A DNA stretch of 9,938 bases from an uncultured delta proteobacterium (lineage in GTDB: Bacteria; RBG-13-61-14; DRUE01). A program made the translations under genes and the position numbers. Where the stretch lies: the NCBI GenBank assembly GCA_903930515.1, contig CAIYYW010000026.1, positions 1-9,938 on the forward strand, read 5' to 3'. Shown piece by piece: positions 1,925 to 9,938 of the stretch. The notes beneath the pieces were generated by a model that searched no databases, was not told the origin of the DNA, and saw only the letters and a list, made by a program, of their open reading frames with translations. Position 1 is the first letter of the stretch. Each line of letters starts with the position of its first letter.

Positions 1925-2845
1925 TTATTTGTCGCGGCCGGGGGCAAAGGCGTCGCGGAGTCCGTCCCCGAGGAAGTTGAAGGCGAGGATGGTGAGGAAG
2001 ATGGCGAGGGAGGGGAAGAGGATGAGGTGCGGGTGGAATCGGAGATGAGCGAACCCGGAGTTGGCCAGGGTACCCCAGGATGCGAGCGGGGGCTGGATGC
2101 CCAGGCCGATGAAGCTGAGGGTGCTCTCGGCCAGGATCACCGCGGGGATGCGGAAGGTGAGCGTGACGATCAGAGGCCCGAGGGTGTTGGGAAGGATGTG
2201 CTTGAACAGGATCGCGCTGGGTTTGGAACCGAGCGCGACCGCGGCCTCCACGAATTTTTCCTCCCGGATCCGGAGCACTTCTCCCCGGACCAGCCTTCCG
2301 ATATTGACCCAGCTCACCAGGCTGAGCGCGATCAGGAGGGAGAGCACTTCCGGGTTGACCAATTTGATCAGGCCGGGCAGGCCGAGGTGGAGGAAAGCAT
2401 TGGCGAGTCCTTCTCGGTCAATGGAGGCGTTGATCAGGATGATCAAGAGCAGGTCGGGAAAGGAATAAACCACATCCGCGATCCGCATCAGGAAGTTGTC
2501 AAGCTTGCCCCCGACATATCCGCTGACGGCTCCGTAAACCGTTCCCAGCAGAAGGGAGAAGAGGGTTGAGAAATAAGCCACGGCCAGGGAAATCCGGGCG
2601 CCGTAGATGATCCGGCTGAGGAGGTCTCTGCCCAACTCGTCGGTGCCGAGCCAGTATGAATGGGTGGGCCCGGACAGCATCACTTTGGTATCCTGAACTT
2701 CATATCCGAAAGGCGCGATCCCGCGGGCGAAAATGGCGACCAGGGTGATCAGGATGATGAAGCCCAGCCCGGCCATTGCCGATTTGTTTTTGCGGAGCCG
2801 GCTCAGCCCCATCTCCAGCGGGCTTTTAGACTTCAGCTTTGGCAT
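1925..2845 (-). CDS. oppC: ABC importer permease, OppC/DppC type
   Basis: This encodes a 306-residue inner-membrane subunit, the normal length for OppC/DppC proteins. It has the N-terminal cytoplasmic segment and first helix (about 25-44), then the WLGTDELGRD signature (65-74) that marks the OppC branch. Further helices lie at about 85-107, 120-140, 165-186, 223-245 and 275-295. The EAA loop that docks the ATPase is intact: EAAVALG (200-206), then an ILPN ending (217-220). The C-terminal FLGDGLRDAFAPG (291-303) is also typical. The ATG at 2843-2845 has AAGGTGA about 7 nt upstream and lies inside the end of the dehydrogenase gene. The protein should pair with the OppB-type permease in this operon. 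Substrate class (oligopeptide, dipeptide, nickel or sugar) cannot be set from the permease alone. It is the last gene of the operon, with no OppD/OppF ATPase gene after it. Confidence 0.93.
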   Translation of the reverse strand: MPKLKSKSPLEMGLSRLRKNKSAMAGLGFIILITLVAIFARGIAPFGYEVQDTKVMLSGPTHSYWLGTDELGRDLLSRIIYGARISLAVAYFSTLFSLLLGTVYGAVSGYVGGKLDNFLMRIADVVYSFPDLLLIILINASIDREGLANAFLHLGLPGLIKLVNPEVLSLLIALSLVSWVNIGRLVRGEVLRIREEKFVEAAVALGSKPSAILFKHILPNTLGPLIVTLTFRIPAVILAESTLSFIGLGIQPPLASWGTLANSGFAHLRFHPHLILFPSLAIFLTILAFNFLGDGLRDAFAPGRDK

Positions 2846-3798
2846 TGCAAGATCACCTTGAGAGAATTTTTGGAGGACGCTCGTTTAAAGGCCTCCTGAA
2901 AATCTTCCAGCTGATAAATTCCGCAGACCAGATCCGCGGGAGCAATTTTTCCCCGCTGCAAATATCGGATGGCCTTGCCGAATTCTCCGCAGCGGGACCC
3001 GATCAGATCAATCTCGTCAACCACCAATTGAGACAGGTCCAGGTTTGCCGATTGCTGGAAGGTGCTTTTGAGAACGATCGTTCCCGCCGGCCGGCAGAGC
3101 TTAAGCGCCATTTGCAAGCCGGAGGGACGGCCGGTGGCCTCAATCACCAGGTCCGGCTTTTTAAGCGGATCTATTTTCATCAGATCCTTTGCCAGCGCCG
3201 TCTTGATCCCGAGGCGGGAAAGGTGTTGGAGCTTTTCCGGATGCTTCCCGATCACCAGGAGCTTTTTGGTTTCCAGCCGGAGCGCCCTCGCGATCAATTG
3301 CGAGAGCTTGCCGTCTCCCAACAAAAACACCGACTGGTTTTTCCGGATTTTGACCTGGTCCAAAATCCTCAAACTCGCGGCTAAAGGCTCGATAAAAACC
3401 GCGTCCAGATCGGAGATGGATTTCGGGACCGGGTGAAGGTTCTCAACCGGCAAGGTCAGGTATTCGGCGAAGGCTCCGTTTCTATTGGAGATGCCGAGCA
3501 CGGTCCGGTTCGGGCAATGCCGGCTCAAGCCGGCTTTGCAGGATGCGCATTTGCCGCAGCCGAGATTGATCTCGCCGGTCACCCTTTTTCCCGGCCATTG
3601 CCCGGGGCCGACAATCACTCTCCCGATAAACTCGTGTCCGGGAATGCCGGTGAAATTCAGATAGCCCTGCAAAATTTCCAGGTCGGTGTTGCAGATTCCG
3701 GCGTAAAGCACCTGGATCAATGCTTCATTTTTTTCCGGCCGGGGGATTTTGTTCTCCCGGAGGCTCAACCTCTTTCCATCAAACCAGAGCGCATTCAT
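2833..3798 (-). CDS. zinc-dependent medium-chain alcohol dehydrogenase
   Basis: This encodes a 321-residue cytosolic oxidoreductase of the medium-chain (MDR) superfamily, slightly shorter than classical 340-370-residue alcohol dehydrogenases. The catalytic zinc ligands are visible as C36 in GICNTD, H55-E56 in GHEF, and E137 in IEPLA. The structural zinc lobe has four cysteines (C81, C84, C87, C95). The Rossmann motif is LLGDGKLSQLIA (159-170), with Ser where the third Gly of GxGxxG is usual. NAD(P)(H)-linked oxidation of an alcohol or sugar hydroxyl is expected, but the substrate is unknown. The start at 3798 overlaps the OppB-type stop as ATGA and has GAGG 5 nt upstream. Its 3' end overlaps the OppC-type gene by 13 nt. 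A soluble enzyme gene between two permease genes of one transporter is unusual and suggests a role linked to the imported substrate. Confidence 0.92.
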   Translation of the reverse strand: MNALWFDGKRLSLRENKIPRPEKNEALIQVLYAGICNTDLEILQGYLNFTGIPGHEFIGRVIVGPGQWPGKRVTGEINLGCGKCASCKAGLSRHCPNRTVLGISNRNGAFAEYLTLPVENLHPVPKSISDLDAVFIEPLAASLRILDQVKIRKNQSVFLLGDGKLSQLIARALRLETKKLLVIGKHPEKLQHLSRLGIKTALAKDLMKIDPLKKPDLVIEATGRPSGLQMALKLCRPAGTIVLKSTFQQSANLDLSQLVVDEIDLIGSRCGEFGKAIRYLQRGKIAPADLVCGIYQLEDFQEAFKRASSKNSLKVILQCQS

Positions 3799-4712
3799 CT
3801 CAGCCTCACCCTCGGGTCGAGGAAGGCGTAAGTCAGGTCCACCAGGAAATTCATCAGCACGATCAAGACCGCGTAAACAATGGTCACCGCCATAATCAGG
3901 GGATAGTCGCGGTTGCTGACCGCGGTGATGAAATACCTTCCCATCCCGGGGATGGAAAAGATTTTCTCAATCACGAACGAGCCGGTGATCAGCATCGCCA
4001 CCAAAGGACCGAGCACGGTCACCACCGGGGAGAGAGAATTCTTGAGCAGATGCCGGAACACCAGCCTGGCCCCGGAAACCCCTTTGGCCTGTACCGATTG
4101 CACGAACGGCTTGCTCAAGGTTTCCAGCAAGCTGCTGCGCGAGAGCCGGGCCAGATAGGCCGCGGGAGCGGCGGCCAGCGAACAGGCGGGCAGGATATAA
4201 TGGGTCCAATCTTCCAGCAGGGCCGGGGGCAATATTTTCAAGCGGTGCCCGAAGAAATAAATCAACAGGGTGGCGAGCACGAATCCGGGCACGGAGATGC
4301 CGAGGGTTGAGAGGAATATGCTGATCCGGTCAAAGGCCTGGTTGTGCCTGAGCGCGGAGACGATCCCGGCGGAAACCCCGAAACTCACGGCGATGACCAA
4401 GGCCCAGAAGCCTAAAAACATTGAGACCGGAAAGGTCTGCGCCAAAATGTCTTCCACCTGCCGGTTCCGGTATTTGAAGCTGGGCCCGAACTGGAGTCTG
4501 GCCAGGTCGGAGATATAAAATCCGTATTGCTTCCAGACCGGCTGGTCCAGGTGATACTTGGCCTGGATGTTCTTGAGGATTTCCGGCGGGAATTTTTTTT
4601 CCGAGTCAAACGGTCCTCCCGGGACCGAGTGCATCAGGAAGAAGGTGATGGTGGACACGGCCCAGACCACAATCAGGCCGTAGAAAATCCTGCTCAAAAC
4701 CAGCCGGGTCAT
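3795..4712 (-). CDS. oppB: ABC importer permease, OppB/DppB type
   Basis: This encodes a 305-residue polytopic inner-membrane subunit of the oligopeptide/dipeptide/nickel ABC importer class. It shows the OppB-branch features in order: first helix (about 9-29) running into HSVPGGPFD (28-36), the periplasmic region with the KYHLDQP segment (52-58), a helix at about 99-120, GISVPGF (138-144), and the ATPase-docking EAA-type loop FVQSVQAKGVSGARLVFRH (203-221). Next come GSFVIEKIFSIPGMGR (244-259) and the hallmark C-terminus LDPRVRLR (298-305). The length is normal. The ATG at 4710-4712 overlaps the binding-protein stop as ATGA and has GGGAGGG just upstream. It should form a heterodimer with the OppC-type permease encoded two genes on, beyond the dehydrogenase. 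Confidence 0.93.
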   Translation of the reverse strand: MTRLVLSRIFYGLIVVWAVSTITFFLMHSVPGGPFDSEKKFPPEILKNIQAKYHLDQPVWKQYGFYISDLARLQFGPSFKYRNRQVEDILAQTFPVSMFLGFWALVIAVSFGVSAGIVSALRHNQAFDRISIFLSTLGISVPGFVLATLLIYFFGHRLKILPPALLEDWTHYILPACSLAAAPAAYLARLSRSSLLETLSKPFVQSVQAKGVSGARLVFRHLLKNSLSPVVTVLGPLVAMLITGSFVIEKIFSIPGMGRYFITAVSNRDYPLIMAVTIVYAVLIVLMNFLVDLTYAFLDPRVRLR

Positions 4713-6280
4713 TTCCCTCCCCTGAAATCTATCCGGGCGTCTTTGAAATAAAGATGGCCCATCGCGTTGAAGTCCAAATTGTGCGCGTAAGGCTTGACCA
4801 GATAATTCACCGAATAAAAATAGAGTGGAATGAAAATGCAGGCGTCTTCCAAAATGATTTTCTGGGACTGGTGGTAAAGCTCCTGGCGCTTTTGCGGGTC
4901 CGGCTCAAAAGCGGCGCGGGTGACCAGATCGTCATACTCCTTGCTTTTGAAGCGGGTGTGGTTGTTGCCGCCCTCGGAGAGGAACACGGTGGCGAAATTA
5001 TCGGGATCGGGAAAATCAGCGTACCAGCCGAGCCTCCAGATCGCGGGCGGATCCAACTGGAGTTCTTTGAGAAAAACTTTCCATTCCATATTCCGGAGAT
5101 AGACGGTAATGCCCAGGTTGTTTTGCCATTGGGCCTGGGCGTATTCGCAGATCAATTGGTTGACATCCTGGTTGTTGAAAATCAGGGTGATCGCCGGAAG
5201 CTTCTTCGGGTCCGGGTACCCGGCTTGGGCGAGCAACTCTTTGGCCTTTTGCGGGTTGAACTCGAACCCGAGTTTGGGATTATGACCGACCAATCCGGGC
5301 GGAATAAAACTGGTGGCCGGGACCTGGTCGCCTTTGAGGATTTCCGGAAATTTGGAACGGTCAATGGACATTGCCAAGGCCCGTCGCACCAGGGGATTAT
5401 CCACCGGAGGCTTGAGCACATTGAACCCGAGGTAATAGGTTCCCAGGATCGGTTTCTGCCGATACTCGGGCGAACTCCGGTAAGAGGGGATCGCGGCCGG
5501 GGGCATCTGGCAGAGATCCAGGTCGCCGGTGTCGTAAAGGGTGAGTTCGGTGGTGCGCTCGTTCATCATATAGAAAATCACCTGGTTGATCGCGGGCTTG
5601 GGCCCGTAATAATGAGGGTTCGGCTCCAGGATCAGCTTGTATTCGTGATGCCATTTGGTCAGGATAAAAGGACCGGTGGTAAGGAGATGCTCCGGCTCCG
5701 TCCAGGAATCGGGATATTTTTCAATCAGATCCCGCCGTTCCGGAAAGGTCACCATAAAAGTGGTGATCACCGGGAAATATACCAGGGGCTGGACCAGTTC
5801 CACCTCCAAAGTACGGTCATCCAAAGCCCGGACTCCCAGTTGATTGAGATCCTTGATCGCGCCGGAATTGATCTCCCTCGCGTTCCTGACCGGGTATAGG
5901 AAATAGGCGTATTCCGCCGCGGTTTCCGGATTGACCAGCCTTTGCCAGGAATAAACAAATTCCTCCGCCAAAACCGGTTTCCCGTCCGACCATTTCGCCC
6001 CCGGCCGGAGATGGAAAATATATTTAGTCCCGTTGTCCAGGATTTCCCAGCTTTCGGCCAGGGCCGGGATGGGCTTCAGGTTTTCATCATAGCGCGTGAG
6101 TCCCTCCATCAGGTTGTCAAGCACTTCAATGGAAGCGCTGTCCGTGGTGATGCTCCAGTCGAGGGAAGGCGGCTCAGTCAACAGATTGTAGCGGACCCGG
6201 TCCCCGGGATTGCGGTTCCGTTTGACGCACCCGGCCAGGATCAGCAGGATCAGGACCGATATTTTGAAATATATTTTCAT
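4709..6280 (-). CDS. oppA: OppA-type solute-binding lipoprotein (SBP_bac_5)
   Basis: This encodes a 523-residue extracytoplasmic binding protein for the ABC importer. A lipoprotein signal peptide is visible: basic N-terminus MKIYFK, hydrophobic core, lipobox LAGC with the acylated C18. The family 5 signature region spans about 59-113: EGLTRYDENLKPIPALAESW, then YIFHLRPGAKWSDG and FVYSWQR. Later conserved parts include PVDNPLVRRALAMSIDR, SFIPPGLVG, and a C-terminal MGHLYFKDARI. These resemble OppA/MppA-type oligopeptide or murein-peptide binders more than nickel or sugar binders. Residue-level substrate specificity cannot be read. The start at 6278-6280 overlaps the upstream stop as ATGA and lacks a clear ribosome binding site, so coupling is likely. 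Both cognate permeases are encoded downstream; the ATPase is not. Confidence 0.94.
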   Translation of the reverse strand: MKIYFKISVLILLILAGCVKRNRNPGDRVRYNLLTEPPSLDWSITTDSASIEVLDNLMEGLTRYDENLKPIPALAESWEILDNGTKYIFHLRPGAKWSDGKPVLAEEFVYSWQRLVNPETAAEYAYFLYPVRNAREINSGAIKDLNQLGVRALDDRTLEVELVQPLVYFPVITTFMVTFPERRDLIEKYPDSWTEPEHLLTTGPFILTKWHHEYKLILEPNPHYYGPKPAINQVIFYMMNERTTELTLYDTGDLDLCQMPPAAIPSYRSSPEYRQKPILGTYYLGFNVLKPPVDNPLVRRALAMSIDRSKFPEILKGDQVPATSFIPPGLVGHNPKLGFEFNPQKAKELLAQAGYPDPKKLPAITLIFNNQDVNQLICEYAQAQWQNNLGITVYLRNMEWKVFLKELQLDPPAIWRLGWYADFPDPDNFATVFLSEGGNNHTRFKSKEYDDLVTRAAFEPDPQKRQELYHQSQKIILEDACIFIPLYFYSVNYLVKPYAHNLDFNAMGHLYFKDARIDFRGGK

Positions 6281-8034
6281 TTCGGCTCGGGAGAATAATT
6301 CCGCTTTTCCGCCTGCTCCAGCAGCTTCTGATAGTACTGCGCCCGCTCCGGGTCGGGCGAATTGTTCCGATAAAAATCCGCAAGGGCCTGGATCCCGGCC
6401 GGCCCTCGCGGGTCGAGCTGGAAACCTTTCTGCAAATATTTTTCCGCGTCAGGGAATTGGCTGCCCCGGATCAGCATTTGCGCGTATTCCAGGTAATAGC
6501 GGGACGCGGTTTTTTTGATCCCGGGATTGGTCGGGTTGATCCGATGCGCCTGCTCAAGCTGGTTGACCGCCTCCGGGTATCGTCCCATCGCCCAGAGCTG
6601 AATCCCGAGCGCGAGCCGGTTCTGGGAATAGCCGGGATGAATCTCCACGGATTTTTCCAAAGCCAGCGTGGCATCCTCCGGCCGGGCCGTGACCATATAA
6701 TATTTCCCAAGGGTCATATACCCGTAGGCGCTCGCCCACTGTTCCCGCTTTTGATTCCGGTCCAGATGATAGGTGATCCGCTTGACCATATCTTCCTCGG
6801 AATGGTTCACCTTCAGCCAGGCCGTGGTTTGAAAGAGCGAGACCAGCAGAACCATAATCGCGAAGGACGAGAACAGGCGACGGTCGGATTTAAGCCTGGG
6901 CAAAAGATAGATCAGCAGGGCAGGGGTGTAAACCATCGCCGGGATAGAAAACAAGTCCCAATCCCTGGCCGCGCCGATCACCGGCCTGAGCGCGAAAAAG
7001 AAAACCGGCAGGATCAGGCTCGCGAGCAGCAAGACCTTTTCCCATCCGGCCCGGCCCGGCTTTGGGCGGATGATAAATGTTCCCAAGAGCAAAAGTAAAA
7101 CAGCCGGCGAAGCCAGGATTTGATGGTTGAAAAAGTCCAGCAGATGTGGAAGGGAAAAGATTTTATCCGGCGTCAGAAAGATCGCGATCCCGCGGTAATA
7201 TCTCCAGACCAGGAACAAGGACAGGCCGGAAAAAATCGCTCCGCCCAAAGTCAGAAAAACCGCGAGGCCGCGCCGATTTTTCCCGGACCGGCTTAAGAGC
7301 AGATAAATGGTCGCAGGGAGGAGCAAGAGGGAGAAGAAATGGAACAGGATCAGCAAAACCTGGCTCCAAAGGATGGTCCGGGTTTTTCCCGATTCGGTCT
7401 CCTTTACCCCGATGATCCAGAACAAGAACAGGCCGGGCAGGAAAGAATAATTCTCCGCGTATCCGGCAAAGAGCTGGATGAAACCCTGGAAGAGCAAAAT
7501 GGCGGTCCAGAAATTACGGTCGGATTGATCGGAGAAAAATTTCCGGCCTGAAATAAAAACCATCGCCAGGTAAAAAAATCCGGCGCCATAAGAGAGGATG
7601 CGGTAAGTCAGGAAATCGGAATGGGATTGGATTTTGATCGCCTGGAAGAGGATCCAATGCAGGGTCAAATCCAGGGGAGCCGGTTGATGCCGGATCATCG
7701 GCAGCAGCCCGGAGTGGAGGCTGAGAATGCGGTCCAGGCCGTCTCCCAATAGGGGCGCCGAGCATGGCAGGGAGAAAAGCACGGTCAGCCAGAGCAGGAT
7801 GATCAGGGGCGGGAATATTTTGGAAAAGGTTTTCTGATTAAGATCTTCCGGAGGGGCAAGACTGAACCAGAGCAGGGCCAGGATAAAAACCGCGATCCCG
7901 ATCCCGATTTGGATTTGGGAAAAAAATCTCAGTTGATCGAACCCGAAGCAATCCTGGAGCCTTAGCGGGAGCAGATGCAAAAAAATGATGGAAAGCGCCA
8001 GGGACGGGACCGCGATCAGCCGGGTGATTTTCAT
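6277..8034 (-). CDS. polytopic membrane protein with C-terminal TPRs, putative GT-C glycosyltransferase
   Basis: This encodes a 585-residue protein with about ten to eleven hydrophobic helices up to residue 405, then a soluble region (about 430-580) of three to four tetratricopeptide repeats. TPR-like units include ATLALEKSVEIHPG (455-468), EAVNQLEQAHRINP (488-501) and DAEKYLQKGFQLDP (529-542). The membrane part resembles GT-C fold proteins, which transfer sugars from polyprenyl-phosphate donors. A first-loop acidic segment, GDGLDR (97-102), could supply the catalytic Asp. Other conserved-looking parts are YAENYS (192-197) and ARDWDLFS (356-363). No named family motif was recognised, so glycosyltransferase activity is inference. 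The start overlaps the TMTC-like stop as ATGA and has no clear ribosome binding site. The gene lies between two different kinds of envelope function, a TMTC-like protein upstream and an OppA lipoprotein downstream. Confidence 0.87.
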   Translation of the reverse strand: MKITRLIAVPSLALSIIFLHLLPLRLQDCFGFDQLRFFSQIQIGIGIAVFILALLWFSLAPPEDLNQKTFSKIFPPLIILLWLTVLFSLPCSAPLLGDGLDRILSLHSGLLPMIRHQPAPLDLTLHWILFQAIKIQSHSDFLTYRILSYGAGFFYLAMVFISGRKFFSDQSDRNFWTAILLFQGFIQLFAGYAENYSFLPGLFLFWIIGVKETESGKTRTILWSQVLLILFHFFSLLLLPATIYLLLSRSGKNRRGLAVFLTLGGAIFSGLSLFLVWRYYRGIAIFLTPDKIFSLPHLLDFFNHQILASPAVLLLLLGTFIIRPKPGRAGWEKVLLLASLILPVFFFALRPVIGAARDWDLFSIPAMVYTPALLIYLLPRLKSDRRLFSSFAIMVLLVSLFQTTAWLKVNHSEEDMVKRITYHLDRNQKREQWASAYGYMTLGKYYMVTARPEDATLALEKSVEIHPGYSQNRLALGIQLWAMGRYPEAVNQLEQAHRINPTNPGIKKTASRYYLEYAQMLIRGSQFPDAEKYLQKGFQLDPRGPAGIQALADFYRNNSPDPERAQYYQKLLEQAEKRNYSPEPK

Positions 8035-9938
8035 TTCGGAGCAAGTTGCGGATGGGCTTTGCCTCTCTGGAGAATGTCGTAAAGCTGGTTGTAAGATTTT
8101 TGAACCAGCGGATTGGAGGGATCAGTCGCGCGCGCTTTTTCCAGGCTCCCAAGCGCCTCGTCGAATTTTCCCTGTTCGCCCTGGGCGTGGGCGAGCATAA
8201 ACCAGGGCTGGGGGTCCTTGTCATACACGCTCAAAGAGGTTTTCAAGGTGTCCTCGGCTTCCGCGAACCGGCGTTGCTCCACATAGTTCCAGGACAGATT
8301 GGCGTAATATTTATATGCCAGCGGATTGACCTGGATCGCCTGGCGGTAGCATTTTTCCGCCTCGTCATATTCCTTGAGCCGGGTGTAAGTTGTTCCCATA
8401 TCATTCCAGGAATCCGGATTAACCGCGGAGACCGCGAGGGCCTGCTGGAAATATTCAATGGCCTGGCGGTAATGTTTTTCAGCCGTGCCGCTATCCTTTG
8501 CCAGAGTGGCGTCATCCCCGCGCCGGAAATTGACAATCGCCAAATTATGGTAGGCCTTGAAATAGCCGGGATCCGCCCGGATTGACCAGAGATACAACTG
8601 ATCCGCCCGGTTCAGGTCCGCGGGCTCTTTCCGGAAATAGGCGTTGCCCAGATCGCTGATCACCTGGGCCTTGCCCGGCGACTTCTTGATCGCGTCCCTC
8701 CAGAGCACCATATCCGAGGTCCAGATCCGGTTGCGGTTGGCGGACAATACGCCGTAACAGAAACAGAGTAAAATCATCCCGGAAACGATCAGCCCCCTCT
8801 TCCATTCCGCTCCCAGTCTGGCTTCCAAACCCTCCCCGGCTGCGGCGAAGAGCAATCCCAGCCCCAGGGAGGGCAGGTAAAGCCGGTGCTCGTTCATAAT
8901 GGCGTTGAGCGGGATCACCGTGGTGGGCGCCAGGGTGATGAAGAACCAGATCAAAAAGAAAATCAGGATGGGGAATTTTTTCCAGTAATAGATCCCCACT
9001 CCGAGCAAAGCCGCGAGGTAGATTCCGGAGGGCAGGACCCAGTCCTTGATCCAGCCGCCGTATTCAATGGTTTCGTAGCTGGTGTTCTGATGGACGGGCA
9101 GGATCAGTAAATTCAGGTAATGCACCAGGCAGCGCGTCTGGGTCATCGCGTTGAGCAGCAGGGGGCGGGGAGTGTTGTCCTGAATCCAGTATTCCAGAAC
9201 CGCGTGCCGGTAGAAGAAATAGATCGCCACCACGATCAGGAACGGGAAGTAATGTAAAATAAATCGGGAGAAATAATCCCCGCGGGATTTGGGCCAAAGA
9301 AAGAGGACATCCAACAACAGCGCGAGTGCGATCACCACGATCGCTTCTTCCTTGACCAGCATCCCCAGGGCGAAGCCGGCTGCGGAAACGATCATCCAGG
9401 GCCAATGTTTATTAAGGATGCTCCGGGTGAACCCGTAAAGCGAGATCAGGATAAAGGTTGAAACCAGAAGCGAGCTCCGGCAGTTGATATAATTCACGGT
9501 CTCGGTGTTCACCGGGTGCAGGGCGAAGATCAGGGCGGAAACCGCGGCGAATTTTTGCCTCCCGGTCAGGTGGACGATCAAGAAGTAAGCGAAAGCGACA
9601 TTGAAGAGGTGGATCAGGATATTGACCAAAATCCAGCTCCAGGGCCGGTATTCGGTCCAGGCGTAGTTCAGGGCGAAAGTGGTGAGCAGGATCGGCCGGA
9701 CCATCTTCACCGAGATCTTGGAACTGAAGGTTTGGGCGTCGGTGAAAAACTTCGGGATATTGGTCAGCTTCCGGATATGGATGTTATCGGTCAGGGAATG
9801 GAAATCGTCGTAATGGAAAACATTCTGGTAACTGTTGGCGTAAACCAGCAGCACGCAGATTCCCAGCAATATCACGATCGGCCAGCGGACTTTGCCGGCC
9901 GGAAATTTCGGCTTCGGTTTGGATTTTTCTATCTTCAG
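8031..9938 (-). CDS. TMTC-like GT-C membrane protein with TPRs, 5'-partial
   Basis: The frame is open to the window edge. A GTG at 9873-9875 could start a 614-residue protein, but the reading continues upstream through a basic, Lys-rich stretch ending KVRWPIV that looks like the cytoplasmic leader of the first helix, so the true start is probably beyond 9938. Numbered from the GTG, the first loop holds HYDDFHSLTDN (21-31) with the Asp-Asp pair expected at a GT-C active site. HPVNTETVNYI (120-130) matches the HPVxTE motif of the TMTC (DUF1736) family, and NEHRLYLPSLG (328-338) matches a second conserved block. About ten helices precede a TPR region (about 402-600), with units such as AEKCYRQAIQVNP (506-518). 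Eukaryotic TMTC proteins are ER O-mannosyltransferases; bacterial relatives are predicted membrane glycosyltransferases using lipid-linked sugar. Acceptor and donor are unknown. It is the first visible gene of the operon. Confidence 0.9.
   Translation of the reverse strand: MKIEKSKPKPKFPAGKVRWPIVILLGICVLLVYANSYQNVFHYDDFHSLTDNIHIRKLTNIPKFFTDAQTFSSKISVKMVRPILLTTFALNYAWTEYRPWSWILVNILIHLFNVAFAYFLIVHLTGRQKFAAVSALIFALHPVNTETVNYINCRSSLLVSTFILISLYGFTRSILNKHWPWMIVSAAGFALGMLVKEEAIVVIALALLLDVLFLWPKSRGDYFSRFILHYFPFLIVVAIYFFYRHAVLEYWIQDNTPRPLLLNAMTQTRCLVHYLNLLILPVHQNTSYETIEYGGWIKDWVLPSGIYLAALLGVGIYYWKKFPILIFFLIWFFITLAPTTVIPLNAIMNEHRLYLPSLGLGLLFAAAGEGLEARLGAEWKRGLIVSGMILLCFCYGVLSANRNRIWTSDMVLWRDAIKKSPGKAQVISDLGNAYFRKEPADLNRADQLYLWSIRADPGYFKAYHNLAIVNFRRGDDATLAKDSGTAEKHYRQAIEYFQQALAVSAVNPDSWNDMGTTYTRLKEYDEAEKCYRQAIQVNPLAYKYYANLSWNYVEQRRFAEAEDTLKTSLSVYDKDPQPWFMLAHAQGEQGKFDEALGSLEKARATDPSNPLVQKSYNQLYDILQRGKAHPQLAPK

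Follow-up and report, generated by a model that had tools for sequence, protein, structure and literature searches.

A probable lineage-specific operon joins ATPase-less oligopeptide importer genes with two TPR-tailed GT-C-type membrane proteins in candidate phylum RBG-13-61-14

Background

The described systems that come closest to the locus analysed here are the OppABCDF oligopeptide importers, the O-mannosyltransferases TMTC1-4 (CAZy family GT105) and the GT-C enzymes of the STT3/AglB/PglB, PMT and ArnT kinds. In the OppA protein of Salmonella, Asp419 binds the amino group of the peptide. The eukaryotic relatives of bacterial TMTC-like proteins are O-mannosyltransferases, and a literature search returned no paper on a role for the bacterial proteins themselves and none on the gene set described below as a whole.

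The window, that is, the whole stretch of DNA analysed, is an entire contig of 9938 bases from a 401-contig draft genome (G000) that in all likelihood belongs to RBG-13-61-14, a name in use for a phylum (PMC13170169). It was compared with two further genomes of this phylum, those of the uncultured delta proteobacterium AlinenSedimentsD2_bin-1424 (G001, a congener) and of Deltaproteobacteria bacterium RBG_13_61_14 (G002, from another family), so that the phylum sample comprises three genomes. The reading we prefer, with a probability of roughly 0.6, is that the window holds an operon specific to one lineage, a small candidate phylum, in which an ATPase-less OppABC is coupled with two TPR-tailed GT-C proteins and a zinc dehydrogenase. 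The parts are of known kinds; their combination is lineage-specific.

Results

Gene set and junctions

The open reading frame listing gives six overlapping genes on the minus strand, running from 9938 to 1925 (Table 1). Four-base overlaps with the sequence ATGA join the TMTC-like gene to TPR2, TPR2 to OppA, OppA to OppB and OppB to the dehydrogenase, and the junction between the dehydrogenase and OppC is an overlap of 13 bases. This agrees with the gene set and the coupled layout given in the initial annotation, all six frames lying where it had placed them. A plus-strand gene (1184-1735) that separates the operon from an SDR gene encodes a 183-aa protein, which matches no Pfam or NCBIfam model.

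Table 1. Genes of the operon in the 9938-base window, in order of transcription
Feature	Coordinates	Strand	Evidence and remarks
TMTC-like GT-C-type membrane protein, C-terminal TPR tail	8031..9938	-	PF13231, TPRs, motifs; 5' end cut by contig end
TPR2, second predicted GT-C-fold membrane protein, C-terminal TPRs	6277..8034	-	AlphaFold2 model and structural matches
OppA-type peptide-binding lipoprotein	4709..6280	-	PF00496, E 2.6e-91
OppB-type permease	3795..4712	-	PF00528, E 5.6e-38
Zinc-dependent medium-chain dehydrogenase (ADH)	2833..3798	-	PF08240, E 8.1e-22, and PF00107
OppC-type permease, final gene	1925..2845	-	PF00528, E 7e-30, and PF12911

The importer and the dehydrogenase

Pfam matches (PF00496, PF00528, PF08240) bear out the earlier identification of OppA-, OppB- and OppC-type genes and an alcohol dehydrogenase. 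Among solved structures, OppA and MppA proteins are the nearest relatives of the operon's OppA, whose Asp422 falls opposite Asp419 in the alignment with the Salmonella protein; PF00496 and this equivalent residue place it, by sequence, in the Cluster C peptide-binding type. No feature pointing to a glycan or glycopeptide ligand was found in the OppA sequence. The locus is like the OppABCDF importers in its OppA, OppB and OppC types and in retaining the Asp419 equivalent, but unlike them in lacking ATPase genes, in having a dehydrogenase between oppB and oppC and in having two GT-C genes upstream. Genes for OppD or OppF are missing from the operon and from the rest of the window, a point that the initial annotation did not mention. 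The only oligo_HPY (OppDF-type) pair of G000 is on contig C137, and each of the three genomes encodes one OppD-type and one OppF-type ATPase away from the operon, a distribution from which we infer that a single OppDF pair is shared by several permease pairs.

The dehydrogenase has a structural four-cysteine zinc motif (residues 81-95), GHEF at 54 and the nucleotide-binding GDGKLSQ at 161. On contig C4 of G000 another OppA gene directly follows a TPR protein gene, with no permeases nearby (L185:3790-7273). On contig C161 of G001 the OppBCDF genes have upstream of them, on the same strand, a gene for a polytopic protein of 590 aa, which contains a QDD motif and matches no Pfam model (L182:6414-8186).

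TPR2, the second membrane protein

In the Pfam scan no glycosyltransferase family matches TPR2, the TPRs being its sole matches, and TPR models likewise fill the list of the commonest Pfam matches among 45 of its relatives. An AlphaFold2 model computed on an alignment of 46 sequences has high confidence (pLDDT 90.5, pTM 0.90), and in the VIA structural comparison its top 13 rows are all GT-C enzymes, with Z 15.1-18.5 over 308-340 residues; the entries that lead the matches are STT3, AglB, ALG12, Pmt1-Pmt2, Pmt4, ArnT and AftB. Plain Foldseek put TPR proteins first, because of the TPR tail of the query. Residues G97 D98, E194, H232 and W359 D360 are invariant in the 46 relatives, across phyla, and D98 puts an acidic side chain into the first (periplasmic) loop. 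TPR2 resembles STT3/AglB/PglB, PMT and ArnT in aligning with them over 283-340 residues at Z 13-18.5 and in the position of an invariant Asp, which lies in the first loop, following the first core helix, but differs from them in its TPR tail, in a sequence identity of 8-15%, and in belonging to a family whose commonest Pfam matches are TPR models alone. A GT-C fold for TPR2 is supported by this model.

A genome scan that used TPR2 alone as the query detected no relatives; an alignment query was needed, and the 78 relatives belong to Gemmatimonadota, Zixibacteria, Latescibacterota, Ignavibacteria, Caldilineae and other groups. Their neighbours, inspected by eye, present no common theme. Gemmatimonadota and Zixibacteria have three or four TPR2-family GT-C genes in a row (L079, L095, L130).

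The TMTC-like protein

The frame of the first gene, 635 aa long, runs open to the contig end and the protein of the congener has 681 aa, so that the start is probably outside the window and the GTG at 9875 is not necessarily the initiation codon. The Pfam scan matches the protein to PF13231 (E 4.8e-8, 33.8 bits, cut-off 26.1) and places TPR models at residues 440-620, after the membrane part; DUF1736 (PF08409) gives no match at E <= 0.001. The motifs to which the initial annotation had drawn attention are all present, with DD at residues 44-45, HPVNTE at 141 and NEHRLYLPS at 349. Against the published list of seven conserved TMTC motifs, M1 to M7 (PMC7801869), the protein keeps the DD of M1, the RP of M2 and the KE of M4, and alters the RxD of M3 to RSS and the DW of M5 to SYE, with the Arg of ERxxY in M7 shifted by one; the acidic residue of the DW motif is Ser in the TMTC-like proteins of this clade. 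It is like TMTC1-4 in having a predicted GT-C type membrane part followed by TPRs, the first-loop DD, the KE pair and the E and Y of ERxxY, but unlike them in being bacterial, in the missing PF08409 match and in these three alterations. Since M3, M5 and an exact M7 are missing, we call the protein TMTC-like rather than TMTC. Its assignment to the GT-C type is supported by PF13231 and the motifs.

Its orthologues share 63% identity in G001 and 45-48% in G002, and the next paralogue shares 33%. The genome of the window contains 17 matches to it, several of which are other TMTC-like proteins and some of which match through the TPRs alone. A model built from three sequences is poor in the membrane part (pLDDT 62) and finds structural matches to the TPR part only; it was left out of the fold assignment. 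The two proteins were also considered as possible duplicates of each other, and a comparison of the membrane-part profiles gave a probability of 0.8% (the profiles are shallow); as the profiles do not match, we treat the two as different GT-C families. The initial description of both as putative glycosyltransferases holds as regards the GT-C type, by fold for TPR2 and by PF13231 and motifs for the TMTC-like protein, and the transfer reaction stays a prediction.

Conservation within the phylum

The adjacency of the TPR genes and the transporter genes recurs in both other genomes of the phylum. In G001 the complete set of six is present in unchanged order, with identities of 63% (TMTC-like), 53% (TPR2), 72% (OppA), 90% (OppB), 66% (dehydrogenase) and 85% (OppC). 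G002 has five of the six, in the order TMTC-like, TPR2, OppA, OppB and dehydrogenase, at 45, 38, 59, 69 and 53% identity, and its OppC orthologue (66%) is on a separate contig, where it immediately follows the gene for a zinc dehydrogenase that belongs to another subfamily (L175:7846-9990, contig C99). The displaced OppC and a gap of 87 bases between OppB and the dehydrogenase in G002 indicate that the set is not unbreakable. The upstream flanks differ, with a GMC oxidoreductase in G001 and MoeA and PCMT in G002. The recurrence in both genomes argues that the arrangement is more than chance, and conservation across the phylum rests on the three genomes of the sample.

The four-base overlaps at TPR2/OppA and OppA/OppB are found in all three genomes, and the position of the OppA gene directly after the GT-C genes could be read as a sign that the two GT-C proteins add sugar to OppA, or to other lipoproteins, during export. 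A precedent is provided by actinobacteria, in which GT-C enzymes are known to O-mannosylate lipoproteins. The N-terminal sequence of OppA, however, shows no linker rich in Ser/Thr past the lipobox, and relatives of OppA are found without the enzymes alongside, and we regard this explanation as improbable.

The operon of G002 includes an additional gene, for a secreted GH52-like glycoside hydrolase, whose start is 4 bases past the dehydrogenase gene (L041:14532-16589). This is the nearest hint that the enzymes and the importer might act on the same molecules. Together with the coupling fixed in three genomes, it would suit a glycopeptide system in which the GT-C enzymes would glycosylate peptides or envelope proteins, OppA would recapture the glycosylated peptides and the dehydrogenase would process the sugar. 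Yet G000 and G001 lack the glycosidase, OppA resembles an ordinary peptide binder, and no GT-C gene adjoins the OppA relatives of 39-51% identity; such a system seems to us quite doubtful.

The two halves outside the phylum

OppA was searched for in 386 genomes spread over the domain, which yielded relatives of up to 51% identity, and the surroundings of 33 OppA loci were read, with flanks of at most about 10 kb and some contigs short. At most of the closest loci outside the phylum, OppA either adjoins OppB and OppC, with no OppD or OppF, or stands alone, and complete OppABCDF sets occur where the OppA is less similar (34-40%). Within those flanks and contigs, no TMTC-like or TPR2 membrane domain is detectable at any of the 33 OppA loci. 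None of the 78 TPR2 relatives has this importer beside it. The importer module is therefore widespread and often ATPase-less, and its junction with the GT-C genes is seen, among the loci examined, in this phylum only. Conservation of the gene order, which the initial annotation proposed to trace across genera, accordingly extends over the three genomes of the phylum and fails beyond it.

Opp genes do occur near two TPR2 relatives (L100 and L140), and these were not counted as conservation because their similarity is low (OppA 24-42% in the parts that match) and chance alone would, by estimate, produce about as many. At the second of these, in Ignavibacteria (L140:15-9906), two tandem TPR2-family genes adjoin a complete Opp set of another kind, ATPases included. 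In another phylum (genome G141), a gene related to the operon's dehydrogenase (48%) is convergent to an OppABC cluster (L304:11486-12433).

That the two halves never come together outside the phylum in the loci examined, and that OppC stands apart in G002, would suit a purely historical neighbourhood, in which a small clade shares a promoter by descent and the GT-C genes and the importer are functionally unrelated. Against this, the order was kept while identity fell to 38-69% and the flanks changed, and the overlaps were kept as well. We see this as a possible account of the locus, on the unlikely side.

Discussion

Under the preferred reading of a lineage-specific operon, OppABC would act as an old and widespread kind of importer that brings in peptides, energised by the OppDF pair encoded elsewhere. 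The two different TPR-tailed GT-C proteins and the zinc dehydrogenase would be co-transcribed and translationally coupled with it. Each GT-C protein most likely takes a sugar from a polyprenyl-phosphate donor at the periplasmic face and presumably passes this sugar on to an acceptor that the TPR domain holds; a secreted protein or one of the envelope is the probable acceptor. The GT-C and import activities would be made together, most likely for the same growth condition or the same programme of envelope turnover. It is possible that the enzymes and the importer act on the same molecules; a more specific form of this idea, in which the TPR-tailed GT-C pair of this one phylum glycosylates envelope peptides or proteins and the co-encoded OppABC recovers the fragments, we consider unlikely.

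For the wider family, the model of TPR2 suggests a GT-C fold for a TPR-tailed family that extends across several candidate phyla and has had no evident glycosyltransferase assignment in Pfam. For the TMTC-like proteins of bacteria, the stable genetic partner found here, a peptide-binding lipoprotein with its permeases, offers a concrete candidate for the acceptor and for a phenotype.
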